Shown in pieces: positions 7,270 to 8,156 of a stretch of DNA of 45,052 nucleotides. The notes beneath the pieces are model-generated. The model ran no database searches. It was not told the origin of the DNA and saw only the letters and a program-made list of their open reading frames with translations. Position 1 is the first letter of the stretch. Each line of letters starts with the position of its first letter. A program made the position numbers and the translations under genes. Source of the DNA: an uncultured Pelagibacteraceae bacterium (GTDB lineage: Bacteria; Pseudomonadota; Alphaproteobacteria; Pelagibacterales; Pelagibacteraceae); the NCBI GenBank assembly GCA_902571095.1, contig CACGAV010000008.1, positions 1 to 45,052 of the forward strand, read 5' to 3'.

Positions 7270-8040
7270 CTATCTTTTTGCTAAAGAAGTGCTTTGCATA
7301 GCAGCAGCCCAGATTACTAGACCAAATGCTAATTTGTTCACAAAGTCAGCTAAGTTGTAGATAACGTTCAATGTGTTTGAGTCAATTCCGCCTGCTAGGT
7401 AACCAAATACATAACCTAGTGGGTAGATCGCCCAACCAATTGTAACTATCATCCTCATAGCACCGAAAGCAGTTGCAACGGCTTTATTACCACCTTTTGC
7501 AGCAGCTCTTCCAGCTTCTCCAGAAAAGATTTCAAATAGAATGTATATCCAACCTGCCATTCCAATTATGAAACCGACAAATTCTTGGATGTAACCGGCT
7601 TCTCCTAAATATCCACCGACTAACATTACTATTGAAGCTATTAGCAATCTCCAAAACATTGAAGTTGGAACTTTTCTAACAGCAGCTAAGATTAGATAGA
7701 ATTCAACTATTTGAAGAGGAACAGTTATTAACCAATCAATATATCTGTATACTGTTGGAGTTTCTCCTGTACTCACCCAAATGTCTCTCATGTATATGTA
7801 GTGAACAAATGCGATAAACTGAATTAATCCAGCAACCGTAACAGATGTTCTCCACGATGCAGCAACTGTGTTTCTTTCTAAAAAGAAGAATACAGCACCT
7901 GCTAACATACCCATTGATACTAACCAAAACGATATTCCTACGAAATCGTTAGTAGCAAGAAAGGCAGTAGCAGCATTAGCAGAACTAGTGATTCCGAAGA
8001 ATGCAAAAGCAGCTAGTGCAATCATACTTAGTTTTTTCAT
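7270..8040 (-). CDS. Proteorhodopsin, blue-absorbing type (light-driven proton pump)
   Basis: This 256-residue protein has seven membrane helices after a signal peptide (residues 1-23, ending SANA). Relative to green proteorhodopsin the numbering is shifted by +5: H80 (H75), proton acceptor D102 (D97), proton donor E113 (E108) and retinal Schiff-base K236 (K231) are all present, so it should pump protons. The spectral-tuning residue, equivalent to position 105, is Q110, which in characterised proteins gives blue absorption near 490 nm and suits open-ocean water. The start has an exceptionally strong Shine-Dalgarno (GGGAGG) for this AT-rich genome, a sign of high expression. It has its own promoter, a roughly 100-base leader and a strong terminator, so it is mainly a single-gene transcript. 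No retinal synthesis genes are in the window. Confidence 0.97.
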   Translation of the reverse strand: MKKLSMIALAAFAFFGITSSANAATAFLATNDFVGISFWLVSMGMLAGAVFFFLERNTVAASWRTSVTVAGLIQFIAFVHYIYMRDIWVSTGETPTVYRYIDWLITVPLQIVEFYLILAAVRKVPTSMFWRLLIASIVMLVGGYLGEAGYIQEFVGFIIGMAGWIYILFEIFSGEAGRAAAKGGNKAVATAFGAMRMIVTIGWAIYPLGYVFGYLAGGIDSNTLNVIYNLADFVNKLAFGLVIWAAAMQSTSLAKR

Positions 8041-8143
8041 GAAAACCTCCCTTTCGTTTAGTTTTCTTTATTAGTTTAAATTTAAACCGTCCAAATTGAG
8101 AGCTTATCTCCCTCCCTATTCGAACATGTTGGGACGGTACCCA
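8041..8143 (-). ncRNA. Candidate structured 5' leader of proteorhodopsin mRNA
   Basis: Reading the minus strand from the predicted start near 8143, the leader begins GGGTACCGTCC. ACCGTCC (8086-8092 on the plus strand) can pair with GGACGGT (8132-8138) across a 39-base interior. Inside is a second hairpin, GGGAG-AUAAG-CUCUC. An alternative UCCC/GGGA pairing would exclude the closing stem. The leader ends in the GGGAGG ribosome site. I do not recognise it as a known riboswitch class; it is inferred from complementarity only. Confidence 0.4.
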
Positions 8144-8150
8144 AAAAAAA

Positions 8151-8156
8151 AGTATA
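8151..8156 (-). promoter_or_regulatory. Candidate -10 element of the proteorhodopsin promoter
   Basis: On the minus strand a TATACT hexamer lies at 8156-8151, followed by a T9 run and GGGTACC. Transcription starting about 7 bases downstream would begin at the base of the predicted leader stem, which supports both calls. No good -35 hexamer is seen at the expected distance. Confidence 0.45.

Follow-up and report, generated by a model that had tools for sequence, protein, structure and literature searches.

A hairpin conserved in shape rather than sequence in the leader of the SAR11 proteorhodopsin gene

The proteorhodopsin locus and its leader

The window (the whole stretch analysed, 45,052 nucleotides of DNA from an uncultured Pelagibacteraceae bacterium) carries a proteorhodopsin gene on its minus strand, and the segment just upstream of the gene is the core promoter and 5' untranslated region (UTR) of this SAR11 gene (Table 1). 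SAR11 proteorhodopsin is among the most transcribed genes of the sunlit ocean. No published account of the rhodopsin leader RNA, or of how the rhodopsin message is built, was found in the literature searched. Rhodopsin homologues were collected from the window's genus, from single-cell and other Pelagibacteraceae genomes, from 398 genomes of the family, and from closed genomes. In three Pelagibacteraceae genera their leaders follow one order: a promoter of the form TTCNNN-17 nt-TANNN(T/A) with a C-rich discriminator, hairpin P1, palindrome P2, an A-rich stretch, the Shine-Dalgarno sequence (SD) and the ATG. We are highly confident in this shared architecture (promoter, P1, P2, A-rich stretch, SD) as described.

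Table 1. Features of the proteorhodopsin gene and its leader in the window
Feature	Position	Strand	Basis and remarks
Proteorhodopsin gene	7270..8040	-	256 aa, signal-peptide-like N terminus; open reading frame and homologues
P3, weak hairpin GAAAAC...GUUUUC	8041..8066	-	SD in loop; base adjoins ATG
Shine-Dalgarno AAGGGAGG	8046..8053	-	Sequence; GGGAG nearly invariant across relatives
P2, perfect palindrome GUUUAAAUUUAAAC	8074..8087	-	Adjoins P1; form GUUUA(W)nUAAAC
P1, predicted 5'-terminal hairpin GUUCGAAU-A-GGGAG...CUCUC-A-AUUUGGAC	8089..8125	-	Minimum-energy fold, sister leaders, covariation
Predicted transcription start	8125..8128, about 8126-8127	-	Spacing in HTCC7211
Putative C-rich discriminator CCCAACA	8127..8133	-	Between -10 box and start
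Putative -10 element TACCGT	8134..8139	-	Homologous position and spacing; counterpart TATTTA in HTCC7211
Putative -35 element TTCAAA	8157..8162	-	Exactly 17 nt before -10 hexamer

An earlier, sequence-only reading of the window had proposed a structured leader between the promoter and a strong SD, and the 98-nt leader does fold better than its dinucleotide shuffles (-23.8 kcal/mol; z -2.9). The same reading closed this structure with ACCGTCC (8132-8138) and its complement GGACGGT (8086-8092), placed a GGGAG/CTCTC hairpin inside (8112-8116 and 8098-8102; all minus strand), and added a competing pairing of UCCC with GGGA. All of these letters are present and the UCCC/GGGA pairing is possible; the proposed closing stem, however, is absent from the minimum-energy fold of the 98-nt leader, where GGAC pairs with GUUC to close P1 and GUUUAAAUUUAAAC forms the second hairpin, P2. 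Folded by itself, a 57-nt piece holding the proposed stem is unremarkable (z -1.6).

A covariance model built from 38 leaders matches 94 of 98 sources, the window among them (62.7 bits; E-value 1e-9). Eight genomes each gave one convincing match, always before the rhodopsin gene, and no second convincing copy was found with the model at other genes of these eight. Searched across the order, the model matches 110 of 148 genomes (E-value ≤ 0.01), all of them in three genera (g1, g3 and g4); Pelagibacteraceae genera outside these three gave no match to the model, and their rhodopsin leaders differ by eye. The sole second match in the order-wide search is weak (E-value 0.005; G168:C1:404114-404206) and lies about 3 kb from the main match. 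As the element occurs at rhodopsin only, it is not a general regulon switch. The leader had also been read as belonging to no named RNA class, in agreement with Rfam 15, which gave no match at gathering score and nothing meaningful at E-value ≤ 1 (best 13-14 bits, against gathering scores of 60-94).

Promoter and transcription start

A -35 element TTC(A/T)NN (or TTTNNN) separated by exactly 17 nt from TANNN(T/A) was found in 134 of 135 distinct leaders from the three genera; among other spacings in the same leaders, the next commonest (14 nt) occurred in 61 and two others in 8-11. The discriminator is 62% GC in the 134 leaders, compared with 21-24% for the -35 element, the spacer and the -10 element. 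C-rich discriminators are elsewhere associated with growth-rate or stringent control. TATACT, considered as a -10 box, is not kept: sister leaders read TTAACT or TTACTT at this place.

Transcription starts have been mapped in situ on the HTCC7211 genome, where the rhodopsin start ranked 10th and its transcript is listed in Table 2 as 529616-530457 (PMC5069720). The same table lists glcB from 61961 and the text of that study puts the glcB start 162 nt before the start codon; since the glcB ATG lies at 62123 in the HTCC7211 genome, the outer coordinate of the table is confirmed as the transcription start. The rhodopsin open reading frame of HTCC7211 begins at 529690, which with a start at 529616 gives a 5' UTR of 74 nt. 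It opens AUCUU-GGUUUAGG, so that the mapped start lies 5 nt before P1 and 7 nt beyond the -10 hexamer TATTTA. Transferred to the window, the positions of TTCAAA, TACCGT and CCCAACA predict a start at about 8126-8127, with P1 directly there. ACCGTCC overlaps the -10 box and the discriminator, and this strand (8132-8138) is thus probably not transcribed and absent from the RNA. The sequence-only reading had set the start just after TATACT; by homology to the mapped HTCC7211 start, it would lie further downstream, past the first half of the stem proposed there. Judged on the window by itself, transcription could conceivably begin at GGG, some 9 nt past TATACT.

The rhodopsin leader is the longest among the 19 top HTCC7211 starts (74 nt; 0-34 nt for the others with a start codon found). 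It also has the strongest 5' fold, at z -4.4 (simple shuffles, first 50 nt), followed by trxB at -2.6, a gene with a 2-nt leader.

Conservation of the three hairpins

P1 was found in all 17 distinct sister leaders of the window's genus, and comparison of relatives, which had been suggested as a check on the leader structure, revealed real covariation at this hairpin. In a sequence-only alignment of 38 leaders of one genus, 95.5% of the cells of the lower stem are paired, two-sided changes occur in 5 of 6 pairs, and the score was reached by none of 500 shuffles. Because the inner part of P1 (and an arm of P3) came out misaligned with MAFFT, P1 was recounted on an alignment of 94 leaders fitted to the covariance model, whose counts lean towards the structure: 91.3% of cells pair (71.1% when shuffled), 310 cells are changed on both sides (99 when shuffled), and two-sided changes occur in 11 of 11 pairs, with none of 500 shuffles as high in cells or score. 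The signal was lost when the partner strand was slid by one to three columns. The sequence-only alignment of the 38 leaders points in the same direction as these counts, and on that of the 17 sister leaders, though partly misaligned, the paired cells of P1 lie above all shuffles. The covariation spans rhodopsins down to about 70% protein identity. Both stem and loop are hypervariable in sequence. P1 is a real RNA helix, conserved in shape rather than sequence. In 125 of 134 leaders it begins 6-13 nt past the -10 box; the other 9, with gaps of 0-1 or 31-83 nt, had the wrong promoter anchor and were later re-anchored.

The sequence-only reading had also called the GC pairing of the leader unusual for its genome. 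High GC is seen in the discriminator of the 134 leaders; in the hairpin it is not kept as such, and several relatives have a P1 made up almost entirely of A-U pairs. The ACCGTCC/GGACGGT pair, for which compensatory change among relatives had been proposed as the test, shows essentially none: 73.9% of cells are paired in the 17 leaders compared with 76.2% in shuffles, with one two-sided change, and the pairing is perfect in 3 of the 17. Neither this closing stem nor the idea of two competing pairings is supported.

Two observations concern the P1 loop. In the window's genus only, the loop (8103-8116 in the window) contains an almost invariant GAGGGAGATA, which resembles the SD. A group of leaders (L043, L051, L069, L076 and L183-L186) have a common loop motif, ACCGCGATT, on stems that differ.

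The arms of P2, GUUUA and UAAAC, are invariant in the 92 distinct rows of the 94-leader alignment, and as its five pairs never vary, covariation cannot assess its pairing. A self-complementary stretch of 14-22 nt runs through its centre in 135 of 135 leaders compared, and the centre variants (AATT, TATA, TTAA and ATAT) are all self-complementary; in L057, a further leader, one arm carries a point change. On the sequences compared, the centre is more symmetric than a four-base RNA loop would need. The gap between P2 and P1 is always 0-4 nt, while the gap between P2 and the start changes as P1 changes in length.

Several further top HTCC7211 leaders also have perfect palindromes, differing in sequence, between start and SD: those of potD (AACGTTAACGTT), tauA (TTTAATTAATTAAA), opuAC (ATTAATATATTAAT), PB7211_298 (AGTTAATTAACT) and PB7211_130 (ATTGTTAACAAT). 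Across the genus the opuAC palindrome changes in sequence while its symmetry stays perfect. We scanned positions -50 to -12 for palindromes of at least 12 and compared genes for exported proteins with other genes. They occurred at 7 of 10 exported-protein genes and 5 of 98 others in stretches of HTCC7211 (p 3e-6; this genome and several of these genes suggested the idea), at 2 of 8 and 3 of 108 in HTCC1062 (p 0.038), and at 2 of 6 and 1 of 119 in one genome from the genus of the window (p 0.006; rhodopsin accounts for one of these 2), with p values uncorrected for multiple thresholds and genomes that share orthologues. We treat this excess as a lead. That P2 belongs to an undescribed class of perfect palindromes between transcription start and SD, in SAR11 genes whose products are abundant and exported (rhodopsin, opuAC/tmoX, tauA, potD and others), is possible, if on the doubtful side. 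Dyad symmetry kept under sequence change would then suggest binding by a dimeric protein, pairing of RNA, or some other process that recognises symmetry and not sequence. In another Pelagibacteraceae genus (L134, L136) the rhodopsin leaders lack P1 and carry TTTTTTGTTTAAACAAAAAA, a long and perfect palindrome, directly ahead of the SD.

P3 is predicted by minimum-energy folds in nearly all leaders shown from the three genera. Its two-sided changes are few (GAAAC/GUUUC; A-U for G-C), and one subclade loses most of it, keeping a part alone; P3 is suggestive as a conserved hairpin. The SD region varies too little for its pairing to be assessed by covariation.

A candidate stabilising stem-loop and its alternatives

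We slightly favour, at a little better than even chance, a 5'-terminal stabilising stem-loop with an accessible ribosome site. Transcription would begin just before P1, which would form at or within a few nt of the 5' end, with the P2 hairpin adjoining. The 5' half of the leader would be taken up by P1 and P2, and the A-rich stretch with its strong SD would stay open to ribosomes, the structured half being kept off the ribosome site. The base-paired 5' end would slow RppH and 5'-tethered RNase E, so that a heavily used message might persist and translation stay constitutively high. A hairpin at the very 5' terminus of a strongly transcribed mRNA, kept for pairing and not for sequence, looks like such a stabiliser. 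In E. coli, RppH, like 5'-tethered RNase E, requires an unpaired 5' terminus; secondary structure there impedes RppH and RNase E and makes the mRNA more stable (PMC3997798). Homologues of both enzymes score above curated cut-offs in four genomes: that of the window, that of a sister, HTCC7211 and HTCC1062. The HTCC7211 rhodopsin mRNA has 5 unpaired 5' nucleotides. Five is near the upper limit for stem-loop protection in E. coli. Stabilisation alone leaves the invariant sequence and palindromic centre of P2, and P3, unexplained.

A switch would instead start at GGGTACC (about 8142), its 5' strand ACCGUCCC alternating between GGACGGU and the SD GGGAGGU and so hiding or freeing the SD on a signal. 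The 98-nt fold indeed pairs ACC.UCCC with the SD, and this pairing is possible in 98.3% of cells in the window's genus; since the SD side is invariant and the other side almost so, it carries no information, and the GGACGGU pairing lacks covariation. Folding from GGGTACC with downstream coding sequence included no longer pairs the strand with the SD, and the strand coincides with the conserved -10 box and discriminator, its HTCC7211 counterpart lying upstream of the mapped start. The ACC.UCCC-SD alternative is thus disfavoured by the start that we infer and not by the comparison. Expression of the 'Ca. P. ubique' rhodopsin is reported to be constitutive and unchanged in light (PMC3090418), a pattern more in keeping with a stabiliser than with a switch; it also disfavours the light response that the sequence-only reading had suggested. 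We judge the switch improbable. Even less probable is a thermosensor or translational gate in which weak P3, with P2, melts or folds around the SD: in three genera the loop of P3, an A-U hairpin, does hold the SD, but this leaves the SD core unpaired, the predicted unpaired probability of the window's SD hardly changes (0.60 at 5 °C and 0.63 at 37 °C), and there is the subclade that has lost most of P3.

P2 might act primarily as a DNA operator, or as a site for a dimeric nucleic-acid-binding protein, with P1 merely insulating it. In all leaders compared its dyad symmetry runs through the centre, something a 4-nt RNA loop has no need of; this speaks for such a role, as do the perfect palindromes of other sequence kept before the binding-protein gene opuAC. 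Against it, the P2 motif shows no excess over a reversed control elsewhere in six genomes (a single-target factor would be compatible with this), the differing palindromes at other genes are ill-suited to one operator, and P2 holds its place next to P1 and not its distance from the start; we think this reading unlikely. A metabolite riboswitch is highly improbable, and with it an attenuator was rejected: a structured leader on one energy-related gene, in a group that uses riboswitches elsewhere (PMC2704228), would be in keeping, but no conserved aptamer core was found, P1 being hypervariable in stem and loop, no terminator lies in the scanned stretch, no Rfam family matches and only one gene per genome is concerned. 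There is scarcely any chance that the RNA fold is without function and the likeness due to shared ancestry and promoter conservation. The invariance of P2 and the SD region, too great for a pairing test, is in line with it, and P1 covariation above all 500 shuffles and all slid controls is not.

The favoured stabilising leader resembles the stem-loops of E. coli ompA and papA in having a hairpin at or within a few nt of the mRNA 5' end, shape kept over sequence, then an open ribosome-binding site, and a highly expressed gene. It differs from them in its two or three tandem hairpins, in a P2 that is invariant and palindromic, and in a P1 that evolves fast yet is kept within three genera. Like riboswitches and SD-sequestering switches it is a structured 5' UTR near a strong SD, and unlike them it has no conserved ligand-binding core or covarying alternative pairing and a single target gene. 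Candidate RNAs of 'Ca. Pelagibacter ubique' (rpsB, rpsL, ffh, SAM-V, rhtB, pntA and SAR11_0636), which came out of a comparison of intergenic regions (Meyer et al. 2009, PMC2704228), are likewise cis-leaders in the same organism group. The rhodopsin leader, unlike these, is absent from the text and Table 1 of that study, where intergenic regions were ranked down to about 26% GC; its low GC is the probable reason.

At most other top HTCC7211 starts examined the leader is far shorter and only weakly structured, which makes that of rhodopsin exceptional. SAR11 genomes are known for minimal intergenic DNA, and a leader kept in shape in such genomes implies that selection pays for it. The alignment and covariance model can be used to find the ends of rhodopsin messages in metatranscriptomes. 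The leader probably protects a heavily used message from decay rather than switching it on and off.
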